Part shown: positions 20,942 to 49,695 of the stretch, piece after piece
Position numbering within the stretch: the stretch's first letter is position 1
Layout: each line of letters begins with the position of its first letter
DNA from: Chloroflexota bacterium
GTDB lineage: Bacteria; Chloroflexota; Dehalococcoidia; Bin125
Length of the DNA: 64,000 nucleotides
NCBI GenBank assembly: GCA_026707145.1
Contig: JAPOXK010000015.1
Span: forward strand, 62,001 to 126,000
Direction of reading: 5' to 3'
The notes under the pieces: model-generated
Told to the model about the DNA's origin: nothing
What the model saw: only the letters and a program-made list of their open reading frames with translations
Database searches by the model: none
Translations under genes and position numbers: made by a program

Positions 20942-21032
20942 GGAGGGTTCGCATAGTTGGCCTAGTGCGCCCGCCTGCTAAGCGGGTTTCGGGGAAACCC
21001 GATCGTGGGTTCGAATCCCACACCCTCCGCCA
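20942..21032 (+). tRNA. tRNA-Ser(GCT)
   Basis: A complete class II tRNA. The acceptor GGAGGGT (20942-20948) pairs with ACCCTCC (21022-21028), followed by discriminator G and an encoded CCA. The anticodon GCT lies in CCGCCTGCTAAGCGG, a long variable arm is built on GGGTTTCGGGGAAACCC, and the T-arm loop is TTCGAATC. It reads AGC/AGU serine codons. Its 3' end is used as the attachment site of the adjoining element. Confidence 0.97.
21019..21032. repeat. attL: tRNA-Ser 3' end
   Basis: These 14 bp (CACACCCTCCGCCA) form the end of the T-arm/acceptor and CCA of tRNA-Ser and recur exactly at 49682-49695. The bases on either side differ between the two sites. Confidence 0.88.
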
Positions 21033-22342: not shown

Positions 22343-22555
22343 ATGCCCGATCCCATTCCCGACACGCCAAAAAATATCGCTCGTGCGGTTCTGGCGGGAC
22401 CGCCGAAGAAGGAATGGGATTGCCTAAAGAGTAAGGTCAGTCAGCCTATGGAGTCCCCCCGCGGAAGTCGCTCGATGAGCCACCAAGCTGCGAAAAAGAC
22501 GGTTGGAATGGTCGCGATGATGGCTACTACCAGCCACCAGATCTCAAGGTGTTGA
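22343..22555 (+). CDS. Small hypothetical protein (PDPIPDTPKNIARA type)
   Basis: A 70-residue open frame beginning MPDPIPDTPKNIARAVLAG and continuing PPKKEWDCLKSK. I recall similar short proteins with an N-terminus of this kind scattered among unrelated bacteria; I cannot name a function. The frame is open upstream to GTG 22280. The second half overlaps, on the opposite strand, a predicted membrane protein gene, so either the C-terminal part or one of the two genes may be unreal. No clear SD is seen. Confidence 0.4.
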   Translation: MPDPIPDTPKNIARAVLAGPPKKEWDCLKSKVSQPMESPRGSRSMSHQAAKKTVGMVAMMATTSHQISRC

Positions 22556-22776
22556 CTCCATGCCCCCAGAATTTGGAGTGCGAATCCTGAAGATACGATT
22601 GGCAGGCCGAACCTCCCCAGTCTCGACCACCACCTTCGCAGCGTTGAGACGGGCTCATCATCGCTTTCGAGGAGAAGATGTGGCCGCCGTGCATGCACAC
22701 GCGGTCCCGCCAGCAGCAGTGCCACCCCGATGATGTCGAGCGCCAGTCCAACGGTGATGAGGATGCTACCGATCAT
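22441..22776 (-). CDS. Small three-helix membrane protein, unknown function
   Basis: From ATG 22776 the product has 111 residues and three hydrophobic helices: SILITVGLALDIIGVALLLA, FGLPIVSSGFALQILGAWS and WWLVVAIIATIPTVFFAAWW. A basic/acidic cytoplasmic loop (RVHARRPHLLLESDDEP) joins the first two. The frame is open to 22935, but the added sequence is hydrophilic and atypical. No family was recognised. It is convergent with the preceding small gene. Confidence 0.55.
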   Translation of the reverse strand: MIGSILITVGLALDIIGVALLLAGPRVHARRPHLLLESDDEPVSTLRRWWSRLGRFGLPIVSSGFALQILGAWSQHLEIWWLVVAIIATIPTVFFAAWWLIERLPRGDSIG

Positions 22777-24046
22777 CGAGTTCCCAACAGAAGATGGGCT
22801 TACACCTCGCCGGCCACCGGAGTCCGCTGGTAGGTGCTGCGAATGTCCGGTGTATCCCTGCTCCGTACTGGGTAGCGTGATGGGCAGGTGATCCAGTACG
22901 ACCCGGGTACCGAATGAGGGGTACGCCTGGGCCAAGGAAGACTATCGCGTGAACTCTCGAGTTGACAGCCACTTGGGTTCCTACTGAGCACAAGCCGAGT
23001 TTGGATCGAACCACCCTGCTGGAATGTCCCGGAAAGTCGGTAGCGCTGAGGCCACGCTCGATCAATCGTGTCACTGACAATGGTGCTTCCGCCGCGTTCT
23101 CCTTCCCTGTGTTTCCTCGCTGCCGGTGCGACGGCTTCGGCCCGGCGCAGCGTGGGCAAGCTCTACACTGCCACGGCCGCGTTCACGCCTGATCTCTCTC
23201 GACTCTGATATTCCCTCTTTTCGTGAACCCGATTGGACCGCGAAATTTGCGTCCGTAGCGTCCGCAGCGGTCACTCTGCTTGATTTCACATGGCTGGCGG
23301 GGACGCAACGGACGGTTCCGTCCCGCCATGGTCAAGGGAAACTGGAAGCATGCTGGCGTATGGCGAAGCCTGCGCCACCCCGCCTGGAACTCCTTGAAAC
23401 CTCCCACGCACGGCTGACCCACAACTAGGCTCCGGGACCGCCTCCCGCTCTGCGTCGCGTCGGGATATCGCGGCCCGCTGTGTTTCCGCGCACCACTTTC
23501 GCGCGGTCTCGCGCGGCTCTGTTGCAACCCAGGTTTGCCGGACTGTCAGATTGACAATGTGCAGGAGCACCTGCATATCGGCTCGATTCGGTCCGTGGGT
23601 CCTTTGCAACACCTACGGAGAAAACACGCCTTCACGCGGCATTGGTCGCACCAATTGGCGACCGATCGGCTCAAGATGGCTTGGTTTCGGCCCGCGATCG
23701 TACGAGGAACGGAAGGGAAGCGGGCTGACGGAGCTCTCCTTCTGGTGGCGGAGTTAAGTCCGACAAGGACCCGACCGGGAAGGGAACGCTTGGACAGACA
23801 CGGCGCACGAGGGCGCTGATACTGGCGCCGCGCTTGCGCTATTGACCAGTCTGTCGACGTGTGGCGGCTCTTCGGACGACGAACCCGCACCTGCGGTCAG
23901 ATCCCGCTCCACCGACCGCAGTCCAAGGGCCTGCAGCTGCTTGACTTGCCCCTCCACTCCGGGAATCTGCACGGATGCGACGAACCTTCCCGCGCAAGGT
24001 CTTCTGACAGCTTGAATCTCGGCCAGGCAACGGTCCGCTCATCACA
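22777..24046. other. Gene-poor debris region
   Basis: About 1.27 kb in which no intact gene can be supported; many short frames overlap on both strands. It includes the primase/helicase 3'-end remnant near 23.2-23.3 kb, listed separately. The composition alternates, suggesting several decayed insertions. Confidence 0.55.
23212..23330 (-). pseudogene. Remnant of a second element helicase 3' end
   Basis: On the minus strand this encodes DATDANFAVQSGSRKEG, matching the C-terminus DPADANFLIQSSPEKG of the island helicase at 44440. At DNA level GAAATTTGCGTCCG, TAGCGTCCGC and GACGCAACGGACG occur in the same order in both places. No open frame extends upstream into a helicase here, so only a fragment of the gene end survives. 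It implies a second related element once occupied this site. Confidence 0.6.
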
Positions 24047-27000
24047 TCAGGCACCGCTGAAGACGAAAGCCGCCCAGACGGACGGTGCGTTGTAGGATAC
24101 CGACCCGTGCGAAGTCGTGGGGGAACGGCTGGCACTCTGCAGGGCTCGAAGAGGCGCCCGACTTGACGCGTAGGCATCGATCACCGCTTCGTCTGCATCG
24201 CGCATCCAAAGCTGCGCTTCGCGGAGGGCGGTTGCGGGCGCTTTCCTAGCTTCGAAGAGGCCTTCGTAAAACCTGGATACGATGAGGGCAGTTGCGAAGT
24301 CGTCGATGGCCCAGAGAGTGGAGACGACGCCAGCCGTCCCGGCAGCGATGAAAGCCGAGGCGAGGCTGAGTAACTCATCGATTTCCTCGTACCCTTGAGG
24401 CACGCCCGTCTCGCACGCGGAGGTGACCACGAGCCGCGCCGCGATCTCGAGGCGAGCGACTTCGAGGGCAGAGAGTTCCACCTCGCCTGCGAGCGAGAGG
24501 GCAGCGGAGAACAGTGGGTCGAAGAGTCGACCCCTGCCGTGGCAGGCGAAGTGAACGTGCGTCGCGAATGGCAGGACATCCAACACACGTTCCTTCGTAG
24601 CCGACTCTCCCTTCAGCACACGCATTGCGCCTGCTGGCACGAATCTCTCGACTAACGCGATCTCGAATTCGGCACCCTCCAGTGGTTTGGGGTGGGGCTG
24701 CGGATCCGCGATCCCGACGAAACGAACCGGATCGCCAGCGCTCTGGGATGCCCGGCGCATACAATTGAGCTGGAGTCGAGCCGAGGGAGCGAACGCCAAG
24801 TCAAAGTCGTCGATCAGGCTCCGCCGATTTCCGACCGCGTCACTCCACGCGATGGCGTGCAGTGGCATCAGCCCGAGGAGTCCAGCGGGGACTAGCGTGA
24901 CACAAGACGCCCCTCGACTAGCCAGCGATCGGGCGAGAGGGTGAAGAAGTTTCTCACCGATGAGAGGGGAGAGGGCTGTGATCGCTGCATCGAGCAGCTC
25001 TGGCTTCAGCGCTTGGGCTACCAAGTATGCGGCTGAGCCGCCGCGACTCCTGTCTGCATCAAGGCCGATCGCCAAATCAGCGATCACCTGCGAGCCGCAA
25101 TCCGGTGCATGGATCGCTTCGAGCTCCACGCCACCTTCGCTATCTTTATCCACAATGATCGCGAACGAGCCTTTGGGTGCGGAGCCCAGGTAGACAAGCG
25201 GCCGTTCGGGCTGCGCGACCTGGCCGATCTCCTCGAGAGTCGGAGGATTGAGAGCATTCTCGAAAGTCGGCGTTTGTTGCAAGGCGGCGCGGATTCGCGT
25301 GAGCTGCTCCGAACTGTCTGATGCTGAGCGCTCCTCCGAGCCGAGGATGTCTGCCCGTACCGAAGTGGTCACCTCCTCGACATCAGTGCGTAGGCCTGGA
25401 TCGAGGTGAGACAACTTGTCGAGATCGATGCCCTCGGCCAGCGTAAGCAAGCCGAGCTCTCTGGCTCGTCCCAGTTCCAGGGCCACCACGGCCTCTTCCA
25501 AACGATCCGCCCGCGCCAGCGCGCCGGCAGCGAAACGAAAATCCGTGGTCTTTCGTCTGCGGCGTTCGGAGATCCGATCTTCCACACGCGACCGCGCGGA
25601 GATCACCGCTGCCGCAGCTTCGACGAGTCGCGCCGCGGCGTCAGCAGCCAACTCCACGTTGTCTTGCTCTTCTGCGAGCGCGGCGAGGCACCGGCTCGCT
25701 TCTCTGGCTTCTCCCGGCCCTGTGTCGGCTGACAGAGCCGTCAAGGCCGTTTTGTATGCTTCGATCGCGCCGCCCGTGTCCGCCCGTGTCTCGCGGATCT
25801 TCCCGATCAGCAACCACGCTTGACCAAAGCGGAGTGGCGATGCCGTGATCGGACTGAGCCGGGCAGCCTCCACCGCACTTGCTTCGGCACGAGCGTGGAG
25901 TCTGGATCGAGCGTCTCCTGCTGTGTCTGGCAGTTGCGCGAGTTCGAGTTGCTCGTTCGCAAGATTGTGCTCGGCTTGGGCAAGGAGTTGAGTGTCGTCG
26001 ACCGAGCGGGCCGCGTAGCGTGCTTTGGCAGAATGACGGATGGCTTTCTGAAGGTTCGATCGGCGGTCGCCGGAGCTAGTTCGAGAGTAAACAACGCCTA
26101 AATTCAGTTGAGTGAATGCCCAATCGCGAGGACTTCGCCGGAACGATCGGTGAGTCAACGTCAGCTCAAGATGTTCGCGGGCGCGGTCATGGTCACCTTC
26201 CTCTCCGCGATACGTGAAGAGGAGAGCGAGGTTAGTGTGAGCCATGGCCCAGCTGTCGGGATGAACAGCTTGTGGGAACCGATCGAGTGCCTCCGACAGA
26301 TGGGTGATGCCCTGAGTGAGATTCCACGCTGGGTCTCCGCGGGGCCGCATCCCGAACGCCGCACTCAAGTTCGTGGCGATCGCGAGACGGCGTTGCGGGT
26401 GATCGATGTCCGGATGCGTATCCAGAATGGAAATCACCGTCCGGCCTAACTCAATAGCGCGCTCGATCTTCTGATCGCGGTCTGCCCCCTCGTCTTGCAG
26501 GAGAGCCGCGACTGTTGTGGCTGCTACTTCGGCCCTCCGTTCTGGGTAGGTGCCCGGCGGCAAGATGTCCAACAGATCCAACCCGGCCTGAGCGAGTGCT
26601 TTCGGACTCCCTCCTCGCTTCGCATCCTCGAACACACGCTGTCGTGGAATGACCGCCTCTTCCCAAAATCTTTGGATCACCGATTCGCGCACGGCCCAGG
26701 CACTCGGAAAGTCACCCGTCCGACAGAGCTGCACGGTTTGTAGCATCGAGCTGGCAAATCGCCGTTTATTTTCATCCGGAGCAGACTCCGCTTGCTGCGC
26801 AACTCGATCTTCCGCTTCCTGGGTCGTGACCTCTGGCCACTGCTCTACCACTTCGCGGAGTTGCTCCTCGCTCGCGACGAGCGCCAGCTCCTCAAGCCCC
26901 CTATCGATCCGCCGTCTCCTCTGGTTCGTTTTGATCTGCCTCAACAGTCCTCGGTACGCGGGCTCACGACCGCCCGCCTCGCTCGCACCCGCCCTCGGCG

Positions 27001-27403
27001 CCTTGATGTCGACATCTATGTCCTTGGTCACACCCGCCGCGATCTCGTTGAACGTGACGACCGCAGGAGGACCGGGCACCTCGCGGATTGCATCGCCTAA
27101 CTCGCGCTGGACAACGGCAACAACGTCACTAAGACTCTCAAGGGGGTCTCGCTGGTCCTCGGGTGCGTGTGCCGCAATCAGGGGAGCGGCTTTCGCGAGG
27201 CGAAGTACCAGCAATGGCTGGGAGCGTCGCAACACGCGGCCGCAACTGGGGCACGTAGGTTCGATAAGGTCAGAGAGTTGCGCTATTAGATCCGGACGCT
27301 CAACTGCGTCAACCGCAAGCCACGTGAATCGCGAGGTCACTTCACCGCAGTGGGTGCAGCCCCATTCCGCCATTGTCGCTTGGGAGATCGGCACTAGTGA
27401 CAT
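24047..27403 (-). CDS. CpXC-TPR-CHAT protein (caspase-like protease domain)
   Basis: About 1,118 residues from ATG 27403 (the frame is open to 27448; a further ATG lies at 27373). The N-terminal CpXC-like zinc domain has CTHC and CPSC pairs about 40 residues apart. Then comes a long helical region with TPR-like repeats (for example WAMAHTNLALLFTYRGEEGD, WAFTQLNLGVVYSRTS). The C-terminal CHAT domain carries the clan CD protease dyad, His in VHFACHGRG and Cys in VTSACETGV, and ends with the typical SVWAAFVFSGA. CHAT proteins are caspase-related proteases; several act in antiviral defence, cutting a partner protein after activation. No obvious partner such as gasdermin is adjacent. The TPRs probably sense or recruit. 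Confidence 0.88.
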   Translation of the reverse strand: MSLVPISQATMAEWGCTHCGEVTSRFTWLAVDAVERPDLIAQLSDLIEPTCPSCGRVLRRSQPLLVLRLAKAAPLIAAHAPEDQRDPLESLSDVVAVVQRELGDAIREVPGPPAVVTFNEIAAGVTKDIDVDIKAPRAGASEAGGREPAYRGLLRQIKTNQRRRRIDRGLEELALVASEEQLREVVEQWPEVTTQEAEDRVAQQAESAPDENKRRFASSMLQTVQLCRTGDFPSAWAVRESVIQRFWEEAVIPRQRVFEDAKRGGSPKALAQAGLDLLDILPPGTYPERRAEVAATTVAALLQDEGADRDQKIERAIELGRTVISILDTHPDIDHPQRRLAIATNLSAAFGMRPRGDPAWNLTQGITHLSEALDRFPQAVHPDSWAMAHTNLALLFTYRGEEGDHDRAREHLELTLTHRSFRRSPRDWAFTQLNLGVVYSRTSSGDRRSNLQKAIRHSAKARYAARSVDDTQLLAQAEHNLANEQLELAQLPDTAGDARSRLHARAEASAVEAARLSPITASPLRFGQAWLLIGKIRETRADTGGAIEAYKTALTALSADTGPGEAREASRCLAALAEEQDNVELAADAAARLVEAAAAVISARSRVEDRISERRRRKTTDFRFAAGALARADRLEEAVVALELGRARELGLLTLAEGIDLDKLSHLDPGLRTDVEEVTTSVRADILGSEERSASDSSEQLTRIRAALQQTPTFENALNPPTLEEIGQVAQPERPLVYLGSAPKGSFAIIVDKDSEGGVELEAIHAPDCGSQVIADLAIGLDADRSRGGSAAYLVAQALKPELLDAAITALSPLIGEKLLHPLARSLASRGASCVTLVPAGLLGLMPLHAIAWSDAVGNRRSLIDDFDLAFAPSARLQLNCMRRASQSAGDPVRFVGIADPQPHPKPLEGAEFEIALVERFVPAGAMRVLKGESATKERVLDVLPFATHVHFACHGRGRLFDPLFSAALSLAGEVELSALEVARLEIAARLVVTSACETGVPQGYEEIDELLSLASAFIAAGTAGVVSTLWAIDDFATALIVSRFYEGLFEARKAPATALREAQLWMRDADEAVIDAYASSRAPLRALQSASRSPTTSHGSVSYNAPSVWAAFVFSGA

Positions 27404-27884
27404 CCTAGGTTCGGGCAGGTCCAATCCTGCGCACTGCCCAAACCGCATCGCAATCGGGATCCAGCGACACCCCTACCTTGTGGATCCTGCAAGCGCGAGT
27501 GGCTGTCTCTCGCAACGGTCCGCCTTGACCAACACTTTCTGGTAACCCTTCGATCCAGTAGTGGCTCTGATGCACGGAAGAAGCACGTAGCGGCAGCATT
27601 CACTCCTACACACCTACCTGTGGCCGCAGCCCCTAGCGTCCCGCCGGTCGGATCACCTCTTGACCAGCTACAAGCTCCTGCCCCGCCGATCTCTCTGGAC
27701 AATAGTCGGCGGGCACGCCGCTCTTCCCGCACGGAGCTGCGGGAGCGAGCTGGCCCATCGCCCGCCAGCACCCGCGCGGCGAGGAGGGGATAGCCTTCGT
27801 GAGTGCGGATTAGGGTCACCCAGAGCTATCGGAGCCCTAGATACAGCGGTTGCTAGATAGCGAAGCGACTCGCCGTTAGGACTT
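27404..27884. other. No supported gene
   Basis: The gap between the CHAT gene and higA. Short frames here lack recognisable features. Confidence 0.45.
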
Positions 27885-28991
27885 CTAGATCAACTGCACG
27901 CGCCGCTTCAGTGAGTTCAACCGTGATCGCGGAATGTGGCCATCACGCTGGAGCCTACCCACAACAAGGCCAGGCGCGATGTCGATCAGGCGCGCGAAGG
28001 CAATAACGCTGCCCTTCGAAAAGTCCCCGCGTTCCAAGAAACTATGGAACTCCTCTTCAGGGATGAGAGCTCTCCGAGCAAACTCGTCGGCAGTGCGCTC
28101 TGCCTCTTCGGCGAGACCATGACCGTGCCGATCAACCGAATTCAGCGGGAGGTCGATGAAATCTCTCCCTTGAGACTCGATGAGATGGCCTGATTCGTGA
28201 AAGAAAGTGAACCACAATTGATCATCCGATTTATGGCGCAGGCTGAGTTGGATTATCGCCTTCTCTCGGGTCAGCCAGCGAGCGGCTCCGCTGAGAAAGG
28301 TGCCGCTGAATTCAGGGATCAGGACCAAGGCAACTCCCGCCTGGGCGCACATCTTTTGCAGTTCACCAATTGCGAGCGAGATGGGTTGCTTCGTAGTCAG
28401 CTTCCTAGCGTTGGCAACGGTCTTCAGCCAACGTTGCCGTTCGAATGGCTCACACTCGATTTTGTCGGCTTCGATTTCTCCCCACCGCAGCCAAGCGGAT
28501 AGCGGCTCCCGGCTCGTCTCGAACGAAGGACTCGACCGGTACCGCGCGAGTGAGTGTTCCCACTGTTGCTCCCAGCCACGAGGGGAGCTAACCGCAAAGA
28601 ACTTCAAGAGATCCTCAACGGTTTGACTCTTGGTGGTCTGGGCACGAATGAGTCCACGTTTCGCAAGGTCTTTGATCGGAAAACGATCTGCCCACGAGAG
28701 ATGAGCTCGCAGTTCGTCAACAGCTTTTCTTCTGGCGAACTGCGAGCGATAGTTGAGTTCTAGACCGTTCCAGAAATGCGCGCTGATTCCCAGCGTCCGC
28801 TCCAATTGAATCGCTGTCTCAGGGGTGATGGCCGCTTTGGCCTTCACGATCTCATTGACGGTTTTGAGCGGCCGATTCATTCGGCGAGAAAGTTCGGCTT
28901 GGGTCATCGATCGCTCTTCGAGTGCTTCTAGTAACACCTCTCCGGGAGCGACGGTCCAGTCTGGTTGCCAAAGATTCTGATCACTTTCCAT
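27885..28991 (-). CDS. higA: HigA-type antitoxin fused to ImmA/IrrE metallopeptidase
   Basis: A 368-residue protein from ATG 28991. Residues about 14-75 are a HigA/XRE helix-turn-helix (GEVLLEALEERSMTQAELSR, then PLKTVNEIVK and ITPETAIQLE). The C-terminal half is an ImmA/IrrE (COG2856) domain with the zinc motif HESGH (265-269), a downstream ADEFA glutamate (E303) and the closing VGRLQRDG. The HTH should bind the operator upstream of higBA and, with HigB, repress it. ImmA-type peptidases cleave regulators or antitoxins, so this antitoxin may be self-regulated by proteolysis. The gene overlaps higB by 11 bp. Fused HigA-ImmA proteins of this length are known. Confidence 0.9.
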   Translation of the reverse strand: MESDQNLWQPDWTVAPGEVLLEALEERSMTQAELSRRMNRPLKTVNEIVKAKAAITPETAIQLERTLGISAHFWNGLELNYRSQFARRKAVDELRAHLSWADRFPIKDLAKRGLIRAQTTKSQTVEDLLKFFAVSSPRGWEQQWEHSLARYRSSPSFETSREPLSAWLRWGEIEADKIECEPFERQRWLKTVANARKLTTKQPISLAIGELQKMCAQAGVALVLIPEFSGTFLSGAARWLTREKAIIQLSLRHKSDDQLWFTFFHESGHLIESQGRDFIDLPLNSVDRHGHGLAEEAERTADEFARRALIPEEEFHSFLERGDFSKGSVIAFARLIDIAPGLVVGRLQRDGHIPRSRLNSLKRRVQLI

Positions 28992-29319
28992 GGTAGTCAA
29001 CAATCCCATCTATCTTGATCGCCGTCACCGATGCGGTGTCGATCCCCCCGTCGTCAAGGCGAGGGATTGGACTGTGATTTGGCTCGAACACCAGTCGGTA
29101 TGGCCCCCACAGATGAAGGGCGAATTGGCCACGGCGATCACCGTGCAATGCGTGACACCTTCCTGGAACGTTGTCCATATGCCTCAACGTTGGTGCCGCG
29201 GAGAGGGAGGCTAGGCGGCGCTTAAGGAGTGCCCAGCTCTCCGCACCCCATCGCCTCTGACCGCGCGCATCATCCTTACAGATCTTCTCGAGTTTTCGGT
29301 CAGTCCAGTGCAGTTCGAT
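28981..29319 (-). CDS. higB: HigB-type toxin (probable AUC start)
   Basis: The frame matches the HigB/RelE-like mRNA interferase family: RKLEKICKDD near the N-terminus, ESWALLKRRLASLSAAPTL, MDNVPGRCHALHGDRRGQFA, the strand YRLVFEPN and a C-terminal VDYHGK. HigB toxins cut ribosome-bound mRNA. A conventional start exists only at TTG 29187, which would remove the conserved first 45 residues. AAGGAG at 29331-29326 lies 6 nt before an ATC codon at 29319, which gives a 112-residue protein of normal family length. So a rare AUC start (or a sequence error from ATG) is proposed. higA overlaps the 3' end. Confidence 0.78.
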   Translation of the reverse strand: MELHWTDRKLEKICKDDARGQRRWGAESWALLKRRLASLSAAPTLRHMDNVPGRCHALHGDRRGQFALHLWGPYRLVFEPNHSPIPRLDDGGIDTASVTAIKIDGIVDYHGK

Positions 29320-29329
29320 AAGGATCTCC

Positions 29330-29358
29330 TTGACAGCATTAACCCTAAGGGTTAATGA
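29330..29358 (+). promoter_or_regulatory. Candidate promoter of the beta-family gene
   Basis: TTGACA at 29330-29335 is followed after 17 bp by TAATGA at 29353-29358. The ATG is at 29390. The spacer is filled by the palindromic operator described next. Confidence 0.45.
29337..29357. promoter_or_regulatory. 21-bp perfect inverted repeat, probable HigA operator
   Basis: The arms CATTAACCCT and AGGGTTAATG are perfect 10-bp complements around one central A. The repeat sits between the divergent higBA pair (minus) and the beta-family gene (plus) and covers the -35/-10 spacer of the latter. It is also only 6 bp from the SD of higB. A HigA dimer is the likely ligand, by proximity. Confidence 0.7.
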
Positions 29359-29389
29359 TCAACTTATCAATGCGCCGACGAGACGACGA

Positions 29390-30517
29390 ATGACTCAGGC
29401 ACCGATCCAGCCCCAACTCTTCGACAAGTGCGCGAACCCGCTTCGGCATGGGGCAGCGCACTATGTCCCAGTTGTTCAGAACAAGAAAGGTGAGCTGGAC
29501 GCACTGATTCACACACCCGAGACGATATGGGATCGGCTCACACCGCTGGTCAGCTTCCTAGGTCCGAGAGACCAGACCGGGCCGCTCAAGCCCGGGACTG
29601 TCTCGGGTTGGGTGAGGCGTGTCCACAAGGCGGTCGGACAGCACGCCTGCTACGTCGATCTGCTACGCCTCAAGCCAAATCGGGAGGTTGCAACCACGCA
29701 ACCCAAAACCGTTCTCTCCTACATGTACGACCGATGCCACTCCCGAGGAATCAACTTCATCCCAGTAGCGCCCATCGATGGGTCGGCAGAACACTTGGAT
29801 CAAGTTGCGGGCGCGCTACATCGTGAGATGAGGGGCGTCGCGCTGCGAGTTCCCCTCTTGAGGATCGTGCCCACAACTGGCAGCGGGTTCCCCACTACTG
29901 TGAAAAATGCGCTTGAGAGACTCAGAGCGCGGCCAGAGAGCGTCGACCTGCTGCTCGATCTCGAGTACCTCGACTGTGCTCTCCGTGCGGACGACATCGC
30001 GCCGCTTGTCAGGGAACTCGCAGAGATGCACAACTGGAGGAATGTCATTCTCGTGGGTACGTCTATTCCCATGACCCTGAGCGGTGTGCCGGAAGGGAAG
30101 CTAGGTTGGCTCCCGAGGTATGAGTGGCAGCTGTGGCGGGAGTTCAACTCGAACCAGAAGATCGTCTTTGGCGACTATTGTGTGCAGCACCCGAAACCCC
30201 CACAGGAAAAAGCGGGACTGGGCATGCGAGCCAATATCCGATACACAACTGATAGCGGAGTGCTCGTGGCGCGGGGATGGGGTCCGGTTACGCTCAGCGG
30301 CAATGGTGAATACGTCACCCTCTGTCGAGGCCTTGTTGCTAAAGACGAGTTCGCAGGGGAGTCATACAGTTGGGGCGACGAAACGATCGCTAAGTGTGCA
30401 CGAGGGGAATTGGACCCTGGATCGCAGGAAATGTGGCGTGGCGCTGGTACCTCTCACCACATCACGTTCGTCACCAAACAGATTGCGCAACTCCCGCGCA
30501 CTGCCTATAGCGTTTAG
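29390..30517 (+). CDS. Beta family protein (T4 beta-like, sce7725-type)
   Basis: A 375-residue protein resembling the beta protein family (named from a phage T4 protein). Features are YVPVVQNKKGELDAL near the N-terminus, VDLLLDLEYLD in the middle, WQLWREF and a C-terminal HHITFVTKQIAQL. The family is seen in phages and in mobile or defence islands, often next to sce7726-family proteins, as here. Its biochemical activity is not established. Start ATG 29390 is chosen because TTG 29330 coincides with the candidate -35 box. Its 3' end overlaps the convergent sce7726-like gene by 47 bp. Confidence 0.78.
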   Translation: MTQAPIQPQLFDKCANPLRHGAAHYVPVVQNKKGELDALIHTPETIWDRLTPLVSFLGPRDQTGPLKPGTVSGWVRRVHKAVGQHACYVDLLRLKPNREVATTQPKTVLSYMYDRCHSRGINFIPVAPIDGSAEHLDQVAGALHREMRGVALRVPLLRIVPTTGSGFPTTVKNALERLRARPESVDLLLDLEYLDCALRADDIAPLVRELAEMHNWRNVILVGTSIPMTLSGVPEGKLGWLPRYEWQLWREFNSNQKIVFGDYCVQHPKPPQEKAGLGMRANIRYTTDSGVLVARGWGPVTLSGNGEYVTLCRGLVAKDEFAGESYSWGDETIAKCARGELDPGSQEMWRGAGTSHHITFVTKQIAQLPRTAYSV

Positions 30518-34255: not shown

Positions 34256-37200
34256 GTGGCAACGACGTTCGGAGATGTCTATCAGCGTTTGAGTGACTGC
34301 TACCCCGACCCACGGGAGCGTGGGCGGCGATTCGAGCCGCTCATGGAGAAGGTGCTGCGAACGGACCGCGCCTTCCGGGCACGGTTCGCGAAGGTCTGGC
34401 CCTGGTCCGAATGGCCCGGCCGGGACGGCCACGACAACTGGTGCGACATCGTCGCCGAGCGCCATGACGGCGGGCTGACCGCCATCCAATGCAAGTGCTA
34501 CGACCCCGAACGCACGCTCTACCAAGGCGACCTCGAATCCTTCCTCGGCCGGGACGACGCCCGTTTCGACGAACTGGTCGTCGTCAGCACGACGCCGAAC
34601 TGGAGCCCGAACCTCCTGCGCACGCTCAGCAACCGGAAGACGCCTGTGCAGCGCCTCGATCTCTTTGGCCTTGAAGCCACGACGATCGACTGGGACGCCT
34701 ACCTGGAGGACGAGGCGGCCCCGCTCAGGGAGCGGCCTCGTAAGGAAATCCTCGATCATCAAAAGCAGGCCCTGGCGGACGTGTTCACCGGCCTTGGGGC
34801 GCACGACCGGGGCCGGCTGATCATGGCTTGCGGCACCGGCAAGACCTTCACGGCGCTGCGCGCCGCCGAGGAGATCGCCGGGTCGGGCGGCCGCGTGCTG
34901 TTCGCCGCGCCCTCGATCTCGCTCGTGGCGCAGGCGCTGCGCGAGTGGGGCCAGGACGCCGTGCTGCCGATCCGCGCCTTCGCGGTTTGCTCAGACGCCA
35001 GGGTCGCCGGCGACGATACCGGCGCCCACCCCTACGACCTGCCGATCCCGCCAACCACCGATCCCAGGCGCTTGGCCGCCGCCGGAGCCGAAGACGCGCC
35101 CGACCGTCTGACCGTGGTCTTCAGCACCTACCAGTCGATGGCGGTGATCCGCGATGCTCAGGCCCAAGGCCTGCCACCCTTCGACCTCGTCATCTGCGAC
35201 GAGGCCCACCGGACCACCGGACACACGCTCACCGGCGAGGAGCGTTCGGCCTTTCTTCTGGTCCATGACTCAGAGGCGATCCACGCTCGCAAGCGGCTCT
35301 ATATGACCGCCACGCCGCGCATCTACGGGGACGCCGGCAAGGCGAAGGCCGAGAAACACAACGTCTATCTCGCCTCGATGGACGACGAGGCCACCTACGG
35401 CCCCGAACTGCACCGCCTCGGCTTCGCCTCATCGGTGGAGCAGGGGTTGCTCTCGGACTACCGCGTGCTGGTGCTGGTGATCAACGAACGGACGATCGCG
35501 CGCGACTTCCAGCGGCATCTCGGCGACGCCGACATCGCCCTCGACGACCTGGGCCGCGTGCTCGGCTGCCTCAACGGCCTCGCCAAGCGCGACCCCGGCA
35601 GCGACCGATTCAAGGACGACCCGGCGCCGATGCGGCGGGCGGTGGCCTTCTCGAACACGATCAAGAAATCCAAATACTTCACCGAGTTGGTCGCGGCGGT
35701 GCAGGACGAGACGGGCGTGGCGGAACGGGCGATCGCGGTGGAGACGCGGCACGTGGACGGCAAGAGCGGCGTGCTGCGGCGCTCCCGCGAACTCGACTGG
35801 CTGCGCACCGAGACTGGGATCATGGGCGATCGCTGCCACGTGCTCAGCAACGCCCGCTGCCTGACCGAGGGGATCGACGTACCCGCCCTCGACGCGGTGC
35901 TGTTCCTGCAGCCGCGCAAGTCGCAGATCGACGTCGTGCAGGCGGTGGGGCGGGTGATGCGCCGCGCCCAGGACAAGCGCTACGGCTACGTGATCCTGCC
36001 GGTGGTCGTCCCCGAGGGCATGGATCCCTCCGCGGCGCTCGACCGCAACGAGGTCTACGGGCACGTCTGGGAGGTGCTGCAGGCGCTGCGCTCGCACGAC
36101 GAGCGCTTCGACGCCGAGAGCAACCAGATCGATCTCGACGGCAAGGACAGCAAGCGGATCGGGATCATCGGGATCGGGTCACCCGACGGCGACAAAAAAG
36201 ACGGTACGGCCGTGGCGGCCGTGGCGGCCGTACAGGCAGGCCTCGCCTTCGGGTGGGGCGAGCACCAGGATGCGATCCTGGCCCGCATCGTCCTGCGCTG
36301 CGGCGACCGCAAATACTGGGCGCAATGGGCCGAGTCGGTGGCCGGGATCGCCAGCGCCCACCGCACCCGCATCGACGCCCTGATCGAGGGGGCGGATCCC
36401 GCACTCGCCCAGCGCTTCGACGAGTTCGTGACGGCCCTCCAGGACAACCTCAATGACTCGATCTCCCGGGAGGACGCGGCCGCGCTGCTCTCACAGCACC
36501 TGATCACCGAGCCCGTCTTCGAGGCCCTCTTCGGCGGCTCGGAGTTCACCGCCCGCAACCCGGTTTCGCAGGCGATGCAGCGCATGATCCGGGAGTTGGA
36601 AGAGCACGGGCTAGAGGCGGAGACGCGGGAGCTTGAAGACTTCTACGCCTCGGTGCGCCGCCGGGTGAAGGGCATCGACAGCGCCGAGGGCCGCCAGCGC
36701 GTCGCGGCCGAGCTCTACGACCGTTTCTTCCGGGTGGCGTTCCCGCGCGACGCCGAGCGGCTGGGCATCGTCTACACCCCGGTCGAGATCGTCGATTTCA
36801 TCAACCGCTCGGTGGCGGAGCTGCTGCGGGAGCACTTCGGGGCGTCGCTGGGCGACGAGGGCGTGCACATCCTCGACCCCTTCACGGGGACGGGCACCTT
36901 CATCGTGCGGCTGCTCCAATCCGGAGTGATCGGCCCCGACGACCTGCTACGCAAGTACAGCCGGGAGCTACATGCCAACGAGATCCTGCTGCTGGCCTAC
37001 TACATCGCCGCCGTCAACATCGAGAACGCCTACGGCGACCTCCTGGCCGCCCAGCAGCGGGAGACGGAGTACGAGCCCTTCGGCGGGATCGTCCTCACCG
37101 ACACCTTTCAGTCCTCCGAAGCCGGCGACCGGCGGGATACGGCGATGTTTCCCCGCAACAACGCCCGCATTGAGCGCCAGCTGGCCCTCGATATTCGCGT

Positions 37201-38596
37201 GATCATCGGGAACCCGCCCTACTCGCGCATGCAGGGAAGCCACGAGGACGACAACCGCAACCAGTCCTACCCGACGCTGGACGCGCGGATCGCCGAGAGC
37301 TACATCGCCCGCTCGGACTCCAAGGGACTCAAGAACCCTCTCTACGACGATTACGTGCGGGCGATCCGCTGGGCATCCGACCGCGTGCGGGACGGCGACG
37401 GCGGGATCATCGGCTTCGTCACCAACGGCGGCTTTCTCGACAGCAAGAGCTTCGACGGCTTCCGCAAGACCGTGGCCGCCGAGTTCCACGAGGTCTACGT
37501 CTACAACCTTCGGGGGAATCAACGGACATCGGGTGAAACGTCCAGGCGTGAGGGCGGCAAGATCTTCGGGAGCGGCAGCCGCGCCGGCGTCGCGATCCTG
37601 CTGCTGGTGAAGCGACCCGAGGCGGTGACCGAGCCCGCGACGATCCGCTACCACGACATCGGCGACTCCCTCTCGCGCGACGAGAAGCTGGCGATCATCG
37701 CTGATTCCAAGCTCAAGGAGATAGCTTGGGAAGAGATCACACCGAACGCAGCCAGCGACTGGATCAACCAGCGCAGCCCCGCCTTTCTGGCTTTGCGGCC
37801 GGTAGCCTTGGTCCAGAGCGAGGCCTCTGCACTCAATGCGCTACAGCCTCTGTTCGGGGTGTCCTCACGCGGGCTAACAACCGCGCGCGATGCTTGGGTA
37901 TTCAATTCCTCCAGCTCGAAACTGCGCGAAACGGTCGATCGGCAGGTGAAGTTCTATAACGCACAGGTTGAGACCCTAAAGCGTGGAGCAACAGCGCCGG
38001 AGCGGGACCCTCGGCGCTTCAAATGGGACGGCTCTGCCGAAAAACGCGCGCGACGGGGACTACGAGCCAAAGTCCGTGCTAGCGGATTTCACACCGCTGC
38101 CTATCGCCCTTTTTTCCAGCAACACTTCTACATGGACCGCGTGCTCAATAACTCGGTCTATCAACTGCCGCGTCTCTTCCCCACGCCAGATACGCGAACC
38201 CCCTGCATCATTGTGGAAATAGGCCTCCGTGCGCCAGGCCGCGCACCAGCCGTGCTTGCAATTGATGCCGTCCCAGACATCGGGATCGGGGCGGGGGCCT
38301 CCGGCCTCGCCTGCCAGGTCCTGCCCCGCTACGCGTACGACCTGCCACAGGAAGCCCTTGTAGGAGCCTCCCCGGCACCGTCCGAGATGCAGCGCCGCGA
38401 CAACATCAGCCCTGCCACACTGGCAGCCTACTGCGCCCGCTACGGCGAAGACGTCACAGCGGATCACGTCCTTCGCCTATGTCTACGGCCTCCTGCACTC
38501 CCCCGAGTACCGCGAGCGCTACGCCGCCGACTTGGCCAAGCTGTTGCCCCGCATCCCCGAGGTGGCCACCGCCGAGGCCTTCCACGCCTTCGCTGA
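34256..38596 (+). CDS. Type ISP restriction-modification enzyme, frameshifted
   Basis: A single-polypeptide R-M enzyme (LlaBIII-like): nuclease, SF2 translocase, methyltransferase and target recognition in one chain. Visible parts are an Mrr-like nuclease with D64 and Q78/K80 (CDIVAE, AIQCKCY), Walker A ACGTGKTF (191-198), DEAH box ICDEAHRTTG (about 313), methyltransferase motif I DPFTGTGTF (about 874) and catalytic NPPYS (about 985). The GTG start has CGGAGGA 5 nt upstream. At 38470-38471 an extra C shifts the frame, so the last about 42 residues of this frame are out of register. The proper C-terminus continues in the next feature. The enzyme may be inactive, or the base may be a sequencing error. 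Confidence 0.92.
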   Translation: MATTFGDVYQRLSDCYPDPRERGRRFEPLMEKVLRTDRAFRARFAKVWPWSEWPGRDGHDNWCDIVAERHDGGLTAIQCKCYDPERTLYQGDLESFLGRDDARFDELVVVSTTPNWSPNLLRTLSNRKTPVQRLDLFGLEATTIDWDAYLEDEAAPLRERPRKEILDHQKQALADVFTGLGAHDRGRLIMACGTGKTFTALRAAEEIAGSGGRVLFAAPSISLVAQALREWGQDAVLPIRAFAVCSDARVAGDDTGAHPYDLPIPPTTDPRRLAAAGAEDAPDRLTVVFSTYQSMAVIRDAQAQGLPPFDLVICDEAHRTTGHTLTGEERSAFLLVHDSEAIHARKRLYMTATPRIYGDAGKAKAEKHNVYLASMDDEATYGPELHRLGFASSVEQGLLSDYRVLVLVINERTIARDFQRHLGDADIALDDLGRVLGCLNGLAKRDPGSDRFKDDPAPMRRAVAFSNTIKKSKYFTELVAAVQDETGVAERAIAVETRHVDGKSGVLRRSRELDWLRTETGIMGDRCHVLSNARCLTEGIDVPALDAVLFLQPRKSQIDVVQAVGRVMRRAQDKRYGYVILPVVVPEGMDPSAALDRNEVYGHVWEVLQALRSHDERFDAESNQIDLDGKDSKRIGIIGIGSPDGDKKDGTAVAAVAAVQAGLAFGWGEHQDAILARIVLRCGDRKYWAQWAESVAGIASAHRTRIDALIEGADPALAQRFDEFVTALQDNLNDSISREDAAALLSQHLITEPVFEALFGGSEFTARNPVSQAMQRMIRELEEHGLEAETRELEDFYASVRRRVKGIDSAEGRQRVAAELYDRFFRVAFPRDAERLGIVYTPVEIVDFINRSVAELLREHFGASLGDEGVHILDPFTGTGTFIVRLLQSGVIGPDDLLRKYSRELHANEILLLAYYIAAVNIENAYGDLLAAQQRETEYEPFGGIVLTDTFQSSEAGDRRDTAMFPRNNARIERQLALDIRVIIGNPPYSRMQGSHEDDNRNQSYPTLDARIAESYIARSDSKGLKNPLYDDYVRAIRWASDRVRDGDGGIIGFVTNGGFLDSKSFDGFRKTVAAEFHEVYVYNLRGNQRTSGETSRREGGKIFGSGSRAGVAILLLVKRPEAVTEPATIRYHDIGDSLSRDEKLAIIADSKLKEIAWEEITPNAASDWINQRSPAFLALRPVALVQSEASALNALQPLFGVSSRGLTTARDAWVFNSSSSKLRETVDRQVKFYNAQVETLKRGATAPERDPRRFKWDGSAEKRARRGLRAKVRASGFHTAAYRPFFQQHFYMDRVLNNSVYQLPRLFPTPDTRTPCIIVEIGLRAPGRAPAVLAIDAVPDIGIGAGASGLACQVLPRYAYDLPQEALVGASPAPSEMQRRDNISPATLAAYCARYGEDVTADHVLRLCLRPPALPRVPRALRRRLGQAVAPHPRGGHRRGLPRLR

Positions 38597-41662: not shown

Positions 41663-43033
41663 CTAATCGATAGGCTCGATGTAGCCCGATCTCGCTCGGC
41701 AGTCCCACACACCGTCAGGTTCCTTGTGAGGTCTAAGCCTCGCGCTCCGGCGAACGCGCGGGAAGCGCTTATCGCATGCGGGGCACACAACGACGTAGCG
41801 TGGCTGAGAACGGTCACCCGTTCGGCTGCCTATGTTCCTTCGGCTTGCTGAAGGCGGAGCGGGGATTTCTCCTTCTGCAGGAAACTCAATGTCATACCTT
41901 GGGGAATAGGGGCGGCTTGTTACAGTGACGGATTGAATACGATCGAGTCGATAGGAACGGGATCCAGAACCGTCCTCGCGGACGGCGTGGAGCAGGATAT
42001 CCCCGGCCCTCGTCTGCCTCAGGGAATACGGTTCGATTAGGCGCTGCGTCCCGTCATAACCAAGCTCGACGAGCAGGTGGTTGACAGCAGCAAACCGGAC
42101 GGGCTCTAGGCGGCTCCCTTCGCCAGATTCCCAGAAGGTCGCAGGTGGCGTCCAGGGTACCTCCCCATCCCGTAGAGGCATGGGCTCAATGGGTTGGACG
42201 GGCCCCTCGCCATTGAGCCACGCGAAGATGCGTGGAACTTCCGCCCAAAATTGCTCAAAGTCAGGGAGAACTTGCAGCTGGTGTGCCAGCATGTTGTCCC
42301 ATTCCGTTCGGAGTTCCGCGAACATCGGCGAGGCGCGGATGCTCTCGGCTGACGGGACAGGGACATCCTTTGCCTTGCACTTCTGCTCAAGGACCTCACG
42401 TACCAGCTCGGCGTGAGGACGGAAGTCCGGGCGCCGGAAGAGATTGACGATGTCGTACAGGTCTCGTGGGCGGGAACGTTCTCCCATCGCGCGTAGCTTT
42501 TCCGCGAAGACTTCTTCGAATCCGTAACAGCGGACTTCGGATGGTCCAGGGAGAACCTCCGGGTAGTCGTGGCTGATTGGTCGCAAGACCGGCGGCCGCG
42601 CGACGAATTCATCCTTGGTGAGGTCGAGTTTGATACGTGAAGGAGTGGGGGCGTCCCGGGGTCCTCGGTAGTAGATGCGGCCCTCGGTGGAACGTCCCGA
42701 CGGTCGACTTTGGTAAACAGGGGTCCGCACCGTGAAGTCGATGCCAGATTCTTGGCCTACGCGATCAAGTACGAGGGACATTACCTCATCTACCTCTTCG
42801 GGTTCGATCGGGCCGTCCTCACGGACCGTGAAATCAAGATCCTCGGAAAAACGGTAGGTCTCGATGTAACACTTCTTTAGACATGTCCCGCCTTTGAACA
42901 CCCAGGTAGCATCGAGCTGCGGATCAGTACCGATCCCCCACAGGACCCACCCGAGTGCGTAGTCCTTTTCGACGACATCGTCTCGCAGTCCCCAGCGGCG
43001 AGCACGATCGTTGAGGTCGGCGCGGCCAATCAA
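41663..43033 (-). CDS. abiEii: AbiEii-type nucleotidyltransferase toxin with WYL and zinc-finger-like extensions
   Basis: A 456-residue protein. Residues about 20-230 are the AbiEii/AbiGii nucleotidyltransferase: GGT at 48-50 (WVFKGGTCLKKC), SEDLDF at 63-68 with the catalytic Asp pair, KLDLT at 135-139 and AEKLRAMGERSRPRDLYD at 177-194. AbiEii toxins modify tRNA or other targets with nucleotides and are neutralised by AbiEi. Unusually, residues 311-384 form a WYL-like domain (LLVELGYDG, RLIEPYSL, SRSYRLDRIQ). A C-terminal C417-C420...H436...C445 cluster could bind zinc. The ATG overlaps the abiEi stop by 4 bp, so translation is probably coupled. Confidence 0.88.
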   Translation of the reverse strand: MIGRADLNDRARRWGLRDDVVEKDYALGWVLWGIGTDPQLDATWVFKGGTCLKKCYIETYRFSEDLDFTVREDGPIEPEEVDEVMSLVLDRVGQESGIDFTVRTPVYQSRPSGRSTEGRIYYRGPRDAPTPSRIKLDLTKDEFVARPPVLRPISHDYPEVLPGPSEVRCYGFEEVFAEKLRAMGERSRPRDLYDIVNLFRRPDFRPHAELVREVLEQKCKAKDVPVPSAESIRASPMFAELRTEWDNMLAHQLQVLPDFEQFWAEVPRIFAWLNGEGPVQPIEPMPLRDGEVPWTPPATFWESGEGSRLEPVRFAAVNHLLVELGYDGTQRLIEPYSLRQTRAGDILLHAVREDGSGSRSYRLDRIQSVTVTSRPYSPRYDIEFPAEGEIPAPPSASRRNIGSRTGDRSQPRYVVVCPACDKRFPRVRRSARLRPHKEPDGVWDCRARSGYIEPID

Positions 43034-43920
43034 GGCCCATCCCCGTGATCGGGAGCGAGACTTGGCGCGTTCACCCGTAGATTCCAGCGAGAGACGATCT
43101 GTCCCTCTAGCGGCCCGTCGGGGTCGAGCTGGCTCAACCCTTTAGTGATCCGACTGTGGCATGTTTCGATGAATTCAGCGTCGGTGAGGTTCCATCGCTC
43201 GGCTAGGTATCCAAGTCGCTTGAATACCGTTCCCCGCCCGAGGCGGTTGCCGTATGCCAACAGCTTTTGCTGATCAACGTGCTCGCCTTCGAAATACGAC
43301 CGCAAGACCTCAGACATGTGCAGTGCTCCTCCAGCCGCCGCCGGAACATCAAGGATGTCCACCACTGTGCGGTGAGGATCGGACACGTTAACCGCAACCC
43401 TTTGTCGCCACACTCGCCGCGTCCCGAACAAGTCCTTCTCTGGCACGGTCCGGATCAAGTAGTCGGTTCCCTGCACAGTCTGTCTGGTTGGTGCGACCTT
43501 CCTGCCGGCAACGACGTAAATGACCGCGAATATCTGGTCTGTCAGTCCCCAATGCTCGATGGCGCTCCATCCCCCGATATAGCTGGGAGCAAAGATCGTC
43601 GCCGAAACTATCCACGGGTCCTCTCGCCACTCGCTTGGCTCAGATGCATCGAGCGGTGCGACGACGTACCAACCCCTTCGCACGCGAGCCAGCCACCCAC
43701 TGTCGGCGAGAGCCGCGAGCAGGCTACGGGTGTGATCGAGATCGATATCAAGCGCCTCTGCCGCCCGCTGAGCGTTGAACGGACCCGGGAACACACGGTG
43801 GAGCGTGGTCAGGTGCCTTCGTCGTCCGCCAGAGAGCCCTGCGAACGGAACTCTCTGGCGAGCCAGGGGAACTACAGCGCCTTCCGCTGCGGCAGAGTCC
43901 ACGTTCTCAGCGTACATCAT
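43030..43920 (-). CDS. abiEi: AbiEi-family antitoxin (type IV toxin-antitoxin)
   Basis: A 296-residue protein matching AbiEi: an N-terminal winged-helix part (FNAQRAAEALDIDLDHTRSL and LADSGWLARVRRGWYVVAPL) and the AbiEi core (YIGGWSAIEHWGL, RVAVNVSDPHRTVVDILDVP). The family binds DNA through the winged helix to autoregulate the operon and counteracts AbiEii without direct toxin binding (type IV). Two adjacent ATG codons at 43920 and 43917 are possible starts. It is upstream of abiEii in the same transcript with a 4-bp overlap. Confidence 0.9.
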   Translation of the reverse strand: MMYAENVDSAAAEGAVVPLARQRVPFAGLSGGRRRHLTTLHRVFPGPFNAQRAAEALDIDLDHTRSLLAALADSGWLARVRRGWYVVAPLDASEPSEWREDPWIVSATIFAPSYIGGWSAIEHWGLTDQIFAVIYVVAGRKVAPTRQTVQGTDYLIRTVPEKDLFGTRRVWRQRVAVNVSDPHRTVVDILDVPAAAGGALHMSEVLRSYFEGEHVDQQKLLAYGNRLGRGTVFKRLGYLAERWNLTDAEFIETCHSRITKGLSQLDPDGPLEGQIVSRWNLRVNAPSLAPDHGDGP

Positions 43921-44439
43921 TGAGGTATATCGAAGGTGGTTTATTTCATGGCTGGTATGTGAAACTCTACTCGCAATGTACCTATGTTGAAATCTAAACG
44001 CGACATCGGATGTTAGAAATCCCAGAATCTGATGCCCGAGAGTAACACTCGTAGCTACCTAACGCGGGAAGGCCCGAGGTGTTCTTCGGCATCCCAAACG
44101 TCCACATCTTCGGTAGCGTAGTCACAGTGCGGGATGAGCCGGAAAACTCACTCGTCCACAACAGAGCCAGTGAGCTCATAGGTCACGTTGGTGAGGAGAC
44201 CTTAGCGAGCACGAGTCCTTCGTGTCTCGGGGTCTGTCGTCCGTCCCATTGCGAATTGCTCTGAAGGCAGCGACATCGCAAGTGCCGCGCCGTGCCAGCG
44301 AAAGAGGAAGTCAGCCGAGAGAGTAGTCCCTACGCCCCTTTGTCGGCCTTCCCTGAAGCGCTGTACGGAAAAGAGCAGCGCAGGATCTTCACTCCCACGA
44401 CTCTTGCTCACAGCTGATCCTCCTTCTGAACCCTGACAT
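43921..44439. other. No supported gene
   Basis: About 520 bp of AT-richer sequence between abiEi (its upstream region) and the helicase 3' end. It should contain the abiE promoter, but no clear operator was identified by eye. Confidence 0.4.
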
Positions 44440-47606: not shown

Positions 47607-48344
47607 CTAAGGGGGCCGTCCAATATCCCTTAGCCTGCCTCGCTGATCTGTCCATACCGTGGCAACGGCGTTATAGGACAAGACCAGCACGTCAGCCACG
47701 ATGCCGCAGCCGGACGGCGTTCTGTCCTTGCCGTCATCTAATGTCGGGCTGAAACCCAAGTGTTGAAGTACGAGCACAGCTGCGAAAATGCGAAGATCGC
47801 GCTCCGTCTCCTTGGGGCGACCTCTAGGGCCCTTCGGTTTCTTGCCTTGAAGCGCACCGCCGATCCATGAGCGCAGAACGCCGTCCAACGGCTCTCCTGT
47901 CTTCAATTGGTCACTAGCGATCAATCTGACCGCCTCATAGAAGGCGGGATGCCGGGCCGCTAGTGCCAGGAAGAAAGCGAGCATCTCCAATTTATCCGGG
48001 TCCGTTGGTGGGAGCATGGCCCAGAACTGAGCCAGCCGTTGACCGGAGAGCCTTGGCGCGGTGCGGGTAGGATCGAGCAGCGGGCCGACGATGATGCGTG
48101 CTTCTTCAAGGGTAATGACGGCGTCGGGGTCGGCCTCACGACGGGCTAGGCACTGCGCGTGCACCGCTCCGGCTTCGGTTGCGACGTAGGCGCGCCACGC
48201 GGCCCGGCTCTCATTCGTTTGCGTGCGTTGTGACGCCGGCAGGAAAGAGGCTATGAGTGGTAGAAACTCAAGAATGTGCTCCTCGAACACGGCTCCCTGG
48301 AGAAAGCGTTCGCGAAACGCTTGGAGTCCGGCCGCCTCATCCAT
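47607..48344 (-). CDS. Hypothetical protein overlapping the integrase gene
   Basis: A 245-residue protein from ATG 48344, inside the last codons of the integrase gene (8-bp overlap), suggesting translational coupling. The sequence has an alpha-helical N-terminal half and a basic stretch (GKKPKGPRGRPKETERDLR). The C-terminus contains a predicted hydrophobic segment (CGIVADVLVLSYNAVATVW). I do not recognise the family. Its position between integrase and alpA suggests a role in excision or replication control of the element, by context only. The open frame extends upstream to 48641, but that part runs opposite to integrase coding and is a shadow. Confidence 0.65.
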   Translation of the reverse strand: MDEAAGLQAFRERFLQGAVFEEHILEFLPLIASFLPASQRTQTNESRAAWRAYVATEAGAVHAQCLARREADPDAVITLEEARIIVGPLLDPTRTAPRLSGQRLAQFWAMLPPTDPDKLEMLAFFLALAARHPAFYEAVRLIASDQLKTGEPLDGVLRSWIGGALQGKKPKGPRGRPKETERDLRIFAAVLVLQHLGFSPTLDDGKDRTPSGCGIVADVLVLSYNAVATVWTDQRGRLRDIGRPP

Positions 48345-49515
48345 GGGAGCACTCGGCCGGGTTGCAGTAGGCGGCCCATTCCTCCATGAGCTGGCGGCGG
48401 CGCTCGAAGAAGTCCGACCGACGATAGGCCGCCTCGACGCGGTCACTGTCGACGTGGGCGAGGGCGAGTTCGCACACCTCGCGCGGCGCATTCGTACACT
48501 CGGCCGCCCAGTCGCGGAAGCTGGAGCGGAACCCGTGCGGCACAGCGGGAATACCCAACTCGCGCAGCAGCTTGGACAGCGTGTTATCGGAGAGTTCTGA
48601 CCCGCGCACGCTCGGGAACACCAGCCCTGAGCCGTTCGCAAGCTCCCGCGCGGCGTCCAGAATCGCGAGCGCGCGCGCCGAGAGGGGAACCCTATGCGCG
48701 AGGCTCGCCTTCATGCGTGCAGCCGGGATGGTCCATGTCGCGGTCTGGTCATCGATCTCCTCCCAGAGAGCGCCCCGGACCTCGCCCGATCGGCAGGCGG
48801 TCAGCACCAAGAACTCGAAGGCCAGCTTCGTCGCCGGCCAGGCCTCGGACGCACGCACCGTGGCAAGTGCGGCTCCGACCTCGGCATGTGGGAGCGCGCG
48901 GTGATGTTCCTGGCGCCCGCTGTTCTTTGGCAGCGCTGCGCCGATCGCCTCGCCGGCCGGGTTGTCGTCGCGGTACCCCTCGGCGATGGCCCACAGCATC
49001 ACGGCGCTGATCCGCTGCCGCACCCGCTTTGCGGTCTCGCGCTTCGTACTCCAGATTGGGACGAGCACGGCCAGCACGTCCGCCGTCGTAATCCGGTCCA
49101 CCGGCGTGCGCCCCAGCTTGGGCATGGCGTAATCGCGTAGGCTGGCGCGCCACTGCTTCTCGCTCTTGCCGCCATCCTTCCAGCCGGCGGCGCGGATCGC
49201 GAGGACGCTATCGACCGCCCCGGCGAAGGTGGGGACGCCGCCGCTGCGCGGGTCCCGGCCGCGGGCGACCGCCCGACGATTCTCCAGCGCCGCCTGGCGA
49301 GCCTCGGCCAAGGTCACGATCGGATACGCACCAAGCCCGATGCTGGACAGCTTCCCGGCGATGCGCAGCCGCTGGCTCCAGGTTTTCGAGAGCCGGCCCG
49401 TAGAGGTCGGCTTGACGAGGAGCGAGAGCCCATACCCGCCGCGACCGTCGCCATAGCGGCCTGGTACAGTGATGGTCTTGACGAAGGCCGCCGAGAGAGT
49501 CTTGGGACGCTTCAT
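48337..49515 (-). CDS. int: Tyrosine integrase (P4-type)
   Basis: A 392-residue site-specific recombinase. The N-terminal DUF4102-like arm-binding part (GDGRGGYGLSLLVKPTSTG) is followed by a core-binding region. The catalytic domain shows the Arg of TACRSGEV, the HxxR box HGFRSSFRD, a later HV box (LALAHVDSD) and the Tyr in EAAYRRSDFFE. It mediates integration and excision at the tRNA-Ser 3' end. ATG 49515 with AAAAGG 6 nt upstream is preferred over ATG 49536. It reads away from attR into the element. It is followed by the hypothetical gene at 47607-48344. Confidence 0.95.
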   Translation of the reverse strand: MKRPKTLSAAFVKTITVPGRYGDGRGGYGLSLLVKPTSTGRLSKTWSQRLRIAGKLSSIGLGAYPIVTLAEARQAALENRRAVARGRDPRSGGVPTFAGAVDSVLAIRAAGWKDGGKSEKQWRASLRDYAMPKLGRTPVDRITTADVLAVLVPIWSTKRETAKRVRQRISAVMLWAIAEGYRDDNPAGEAIGAALPKNSGRQEHHRALPHAEVGAALATVRASEAWPATKLAFEFLVLTACRSGEVRGALWEEIDDQTATWTIPAARMKASLAHRVPLSARALAILDAARELANGSGLVFPSVRGSELSDNTLSKLLRELGIPAVPHGFRSSFRDWAAECTNAPREVCELALAHVDSDRVEAAYRRSDFFERRRQLMEEWAAYCNPAECSHG

Positions 49516-49681
49516 GAGTACCTTTTCCGTTATCACTTATGAAGTGAGAATAGGCTGGAAAACCAGGGAATGTCAAGGAACGGCGATCGCTGCTGAGAAG
49601 CCATTACAGTCTATAAATACAGGACATTACTGAAAACAATGGGTCAGCGTGAGACCGTTGGAGCAATGAGGCATTGGCGGA

Positions 49682-49695
49682 CACACCCTCCGCCA
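49682..49695. repeat. attR: copy of the tRNA-Ser 3' end
   Basis: CACACCCTCCGCCA, an exact 14-bp copy of the tRNA-Ser 3' terminus at 21019-21032. It is located 167 bp upstream of the integrase start and 57 bp before miaB. Confidence 0.88.

Follow-up and report, generated by a model that had tools for sequence, protein, structure and literature searches.

We analysed a stretch of 64,000 nucleotides from a Chloroflexota genome, referred to here as the window, in which one long gene on the minus strand encodes a protein that combines three parts in a single chain. Residues are numbered according to the 1118-aa form throughout. The gene and its parts are:

24047..27403 (-): CpXC-TPR-CHAT protein, 1118 aa; open frame, orthologues begin here, dN/dS about 0.2
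27143..27358 (-): CpXC zinc-ribbon-like domain, residues 16-87, C16-x2-C19 ... C51-P-x-C54; below the Pfam cut-off, detected by an Anaerolineae-only profile, conserved cysteines
25589..26959 (-): TPR-type alpha-solenoid, residues about 149-605; AlphaFold and Foldseek
24053..24961 (-): CHAT caspase-like protease domain, residues 815-1117; PF12770, aligned to Csx29 / TPR-CHAT structures
24539..24541 (-): predicted catalytic His955 codon (HFACHG), conserved in CpXC-CHAT relatives, aligns with the histidine of Csx29 ILCHG
24413..24415 (-): predicted catalytic Cys997 codon (SACETG), conserved in CpXC-CHAT relatives, aligns with the cysteine of Csx29 GACET

The frame is open without interruption over 24047-27448 on the minus strand, its longest form starting at 27448. 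Since the alignment with both full-length orthologues begins only at about residue 18 of this longest form, the start at 27403 is preferred as the most likely one. Comparison with the 62% orthologue gave a dN/dS of about 0.2 in every segment including the CpXC part, conservation being lowest between CpXC and the TPR core (100-330). The 1118-aa protein is under purifying selection. The chain of CpXC zinc ribbon, TPR-type solenoid and intact CHAT domain described in the initial annotation is present and is borne out by the Pfam match of CHAT, an Anaerolineae CpXC profile and AlphaFold with Foldseek.

The two Pfam families named in the initial annotation fared differently. PF12770 (CHAT) matched at E 7e-47 and 160.7 bits, far above its cut-off of 24, whereas PF14353 (CpXC) reached only E 4.7e-4 and 20.6 bits, under the curated threshold of 25.4. 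Both dyad residues align with those of Csx29, and His955 and Cys997 are kept in every CpXC-CHAT relative with a readable site, so that the dyad which had been read as intact is also a conserved one. Such retention is not automatic, since in L078, a TPR-CHAT relative that has no CpXC, both residues have been lost. The window protein belongs to the CHAT family, has an intact predicted dyad and is a putative active protease.

Pfam TPR models gave no match in the window protein. In the AlphaFold model the middle section, residues about 149-605, folds into a solenoid of helical hairpins (pLDDT mostly 70-94), and Foldseek matched this solenoid to the TPR domains of LGN/Pins (E about 1e-7). As modelled, the middle section is a helical-hairpin solenoid of the TPR type. 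The proposed TPR-like section is thus supported by structure prediction, whereas the model is unreliable for the CpXC and CHAT parts because the input consisted of three sequences only; for the CHAT part alone, three sequences gave a mean pLDDT of 37.9.

The N-terminal head of both orthologues also scores under the PF14353 cut-off (23.9 for G016, 13.8 for G019). A profile made from Anaerolineae CpXC domains only (nine proteins, four of them demonstrated above the Pfam cut-off) was run against 803 translated frames, where it matched the window protein at E 1.5e-15; the window protein and the two orthologues were its sole matches, at 1e-15 to 1e-13. Cys16, Cys19, Cys51 and Cys54 are invariant across these three proteins, and the first three of them in 12 of 12 CpXC rows. 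From these profile matches and cysteines we regard the head as homologous to bona fide CpXC domains, with the motif C-x2-C ... C-P-x-C present, and as likely to bind zinc.

The gene lies within an integrated element, for which we mapped the following features:

21019..21032 (+): attachment repeat, left copy, at the 3' end of tRNA-Ser (20942-21032); exact 14-bp repeat
49682..49695 (+): attachment repeat, right copy; exact 14-bp repeat
48337..49536 (-): tyrosine integrase of the carrying element; Phage_integrase, Phage_int_M, Arm-DNA-bind_3
27885..29009 (-): neighbouring Xre-HTH plus ImmA/IrrE-type peptidase, PD-lambda-2_B; PADLOC 1.1e-30, Pfam HTH_3 and Peptidase_M78
28981 to about 29310 (-): HigB-like frame of the PD-lambda-2-like locus
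29330..30517 (+): neighbouring Beta protein, PD-lambda-2_C; PADLOC 5.3e-48, PF14350 2e-65
34256..38596 (+): type ISP / IIG restriction-modification enzyme; PADLOC E 0, Pfam
41663..43920 (-): AbiEii and AbiEi; PADLOC 4.6e-129 and 5.4e-78

The 14-bp direct repeat CACACCCTCCGCCA has exactly two occurrences, with 0 expected by chance. Its right copy was not matched when the 19-nt tail of the tRNA was used as the att query, and was found with the 14-bp core. Together with the integrase the repeats define an integrated element of about 28.7 kb at tRNA-Ser, and the CHAT gene is part of its cargo and lies among defence genes, which agrees with the location first assigned to it. A protein matching 'cll' is also carried. 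The specificity part at the C-terminus of the ISP/IIG enzyme (34256-39026) runs on in another frame (38532-39026), possibly owing to a frameshift. Near the CHAT gene, a 111-bp stretch (23157-23262) shares ~73% identity with the 3'-terminal part of the element's replication gene (44380-44490). This suggests that an older element left a remnant here and that the island grew by accretion.

What the earlier reading of this cargo did not mention is the immediate neighbour, a PD-lambda-2-like toxin-antitoxin defence locus (27885-30517). Its third component, the Beta protein, lies on the opposite strand, and its HigB-like frame is without an ATG, GTG or TTG start ahead of the conserved part. PD-lambda-2_B is the next gene upstream of the CHAT gene, on the same strand and only 0.48 kb off, as might be expected if the CHAT protein were an accessory component of this locus. 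We consider this highly improbable: PD-lambda-2 genes are missing next to the G016 orthologue, for which reason identity as a PD-lambda-2 subunit was rejected, and the described system comprises three components, none of them a protease of the CpXC-TPR-CHAT type (PMC9519451).

Two full-length orthologues (62% and 48%) were found in the same Chloroflexota family. Their contigs belong to the Chloroflexota MAGs IRC2_bin_8 and RHO2_bin_60, as named in the genome collection, which from these labels we take to be sponge samples. The gene is present in 3 of 20 family genomes and absent from well-assembled relatives. Flanks are readable for one of the two orthologues (G016), the third copy lying on a 3.8-kb contig. 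Around the G016 orthologue we found GajA/GajB (Gabija), type I restriction genes, a PDC-S37/Hhe-like helicase-nuclease and a PDC-S20 P-loop protein; tblastn of the tested neighbours against the window found none in common. Since the tested neighbours differ, the two readable contexts represent different defence islands, and no housekeeping context is apparent around the near orthologues.

We also searched for more distant copies. With the window protein alone as query, neither the genome-contig nor the viral-contig sequence scans returned relatives, and the viral-contig scan with alignment did not either. In plasmids and phages, tblastn gave matches at the level of CHAT and TPR only and none for the N-terminal 350 aa. 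A literature search on CpXC yielded no paper that we recognised as describing the CpXC-TPR-CHAT fusion. To our knowledge there are no experimentally known defence proteins of this kind in sponge-associated Chloroflexota, the lineage from which the window comes.

The CpXC-TPR-CHAT fusion recurs in Chloroflexota of Anaerolineae type (L068, L070, L071, L072 and L073), with split or broken copies at L069, L074 and L075; the class Anaerolineae for these relatives is our assumption. At L069 (7584-11000, G219) a frame change separates the CpXC part from the TPR-CHAT part at a break inside a near-identical TPR array; phase variation driven by the repeats, decay of the gene or an error in the sequence could account for it. 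Like the window protein, L068, L070, L071 and L072 show the same domain order and the conserved dyad. They differ in their more typical Pfam TPR arrays, in an abutting second CHAT or CHAT-like protein of ~600-680 aa, and in the position of their CHAT domains, the window protein and its orthologues forming a tight clade (100/100) separate from the Anaerolineae set. On the CHAT tree, which includes some rows with incomplete N-termini and a long branch for L073, the CpXC label needs five changes, at least four of them on well-supported branches. A single origin of the CpXC-CHAT fusion is therefore not supported, and the tree suggests that the CpXC head was repeatedly gained or lost. An NB-ARC plus TPR protein with an N-terminal CpXC, cut by the contig end, was seen at L081:9674-12541, so sensors of more than one type carry CpXC. 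Recurrence of the fusion together with this protein is as expected of a swappable sensor module.

The second protein adjoins the (CpXC-)TPR-CHAT gene in six loci:

L068:12824-14803
L069:5604-7583
L070:2334-4286
L071:12277-14256
L072:6415-8214
L076:302-2332 (own TPR-CHAT N-terminus cut off, CpXC not seen)

It has 599-676 aa and abuts or overlaps the TPR-CHAT gene with a gap of 3 to -43 nt. A recognisable CHAT dyad (THG / NACHVG) is found in five of the six, L070 being divergent. Downstream sequence could be read for seven CpXC-CHAT relatives other than the sponge trio. Five of them are directly followed by a second CHAT or CHAT-like gene; L073 and L075 have no second CHAT gene in the readable sequence. 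It is possible that the Anaerolineae pair constitutes a two-protease cascade. The description of the protein as stand-alone consequently applies to the sponge lineage as far as seen and does not extend to these distant relatives.

These pairs raise the question whether the window protein also acts with a partner, unlinked or unrecognised, such as a membrane effector, in the manner of the gasdermin-type CHAT proteases or the Anaerolineae cassette. In both readable loci a small membrane protein is encoded downstream on the same strand, of 164 aa in the window (22441-22935, without a Pfam or PADLOC family) and at L010:10799-11569 in G016. The two are dissimilar, however, as the G016 protein had no tblastn match in the window. 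The downstream gene of the window is separated from the CHAT gene by 1.1 kb of apparently non-coding DNA, and CHAT searches of the genome gave a single match and no second CHAT gene. Neither the window nor the G016 locus shows a conserved partner linked to the gene, in line with the absence of an adjacent partner noted at the outset, and we regard dependence on an unlinked or unrecognised partner as unlikely.

Among solved structures, the best sequence match of the window protein (E 4e-5) is Csx29 of Craspase, which likewise has a TPR solenoid ahead of its CHAT protease and shares the His/Cys dyad. The NCBIfam model of Csx29 (NF041237) matches the window protein weakly and over CHAT, with 42.9 bits against a cut-off of 300, and the N-terminal CpXC ribbon sets the window protein apart. 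RAMP Cas genes, to which the Cas7-11 partner belongs, were not found in the 92.6% complete genome (no PF03787 match). Identity with Csx29 was rejected on account of the score and the missing RAMP Cas gene. The initial annotation had considered CHAT defence proteins to act with gasdermin or in Craspase, a list that is incomplete, since Borvo is an anti-phage system listed as CHAT-protease type (PMC10952713). BovA of Borvo shares the CHAT protease domain; its PADLOC match (E 0.038, 10.5 bits) covers 57 CHAT residues only, with no sign of a common architecture, and BovA identity was rejected on this short and weak match. Gasdermin-associated CHAT proteases, which are predicted to act in cell-death defence (PMC9729208), share the CHAT protease, whereas no gasdermin-like match was obtained among the neighbouring cargo genes in the general Pfam/PADLOC annotation. 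CATRA and other caspase-dependent conflict systems, compared from the literature, have no defining domain in common with it by Pfam. Judged by sequence, the window protein could be placed in none of the named defence systems tested here. Our best reading is that it works like a TPR-CHAT protease and represents a variant not filed under known systems.

A role in signalling or stress response unrelated to phage, with the gene present in the cargo by chance, would fit the abundance and variety of CHAT proteins in Chloroflexota (the full profile matches 129 of 400 genomes, mostly via CHAT) and the fact that some Anaerolineae copies adjoin metabolic genes, e.g. a nitrogenase-type oxidoreductase. 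The close orthologues speak against it, being patchily distributed and located in two separate defence islands, and we give this explanation slightly less credit than the partner hypothesis. A function in defence appears likely from the patchy distribution, purifying selection, conserved dyad and two unrelated defence-island surroundings. Counted against it are the absence of a linked substrate (a single CHAT match and no RAMP Cas match genome-wide), the sampled neighbours of the Anaerolineae relatives, which include no strong defence family, and the readable flanks of just one orthologue out of two.

In summary, the window protein is probably a single-chain defence protease carried as cargo of a mobile element, an autoinhibited sensor of infection whose CHAT domain would cleave its target or targets and thereby halt phage production or the infected cell. 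While the TPR-CHAT subunit of Craspase is kept inactive, its two dyad residues lie about 7 A from each other; an RNA-induced rearrangement closes this distance to about 3 A and switches the subunit on (PMC9729208). Control there depends on what binds beside the TPR domain (PMC9729208), a precedent on which we base the switch model. By this analogy, autoinhibition, allosteric activation and proteolysis would proceed as follows. The CpXC zinc ribbon and TPR solenoid would hold CHAT inactive and serve as receptor. Binding of an infection signal, conjecturally a phage protein or a ligand bound by the zinc ribbon or the TPR section, would rearrange the solenoid and bring His955 and Cys997 together. 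Activated CHAT might then cleave one or a few target proteins, with a stop of phage production or of the infected cell as the presumed abortive outcome.

More tentatively, and with appreciable doubt, the protein may represent a new class of autonomous caspase-like immune sensor-protease, in which a receptor of zinc ribbon and TPR gates CHAT and which evolved in Anaerolineae into a two-protease cascade with the second CHAT downstream. If true, the caspase-like arm of bacterial immunity would gain an uncharacterised architecture, in which a CHAT protease has its sensor in the same chain and does without a CRISPR guide or linked gasdermin. The Anaerolineae two-protease cassette is the part most deserving attention, as the paired version would make a protease-activates-protease step testable in a two-gene bacterial system.
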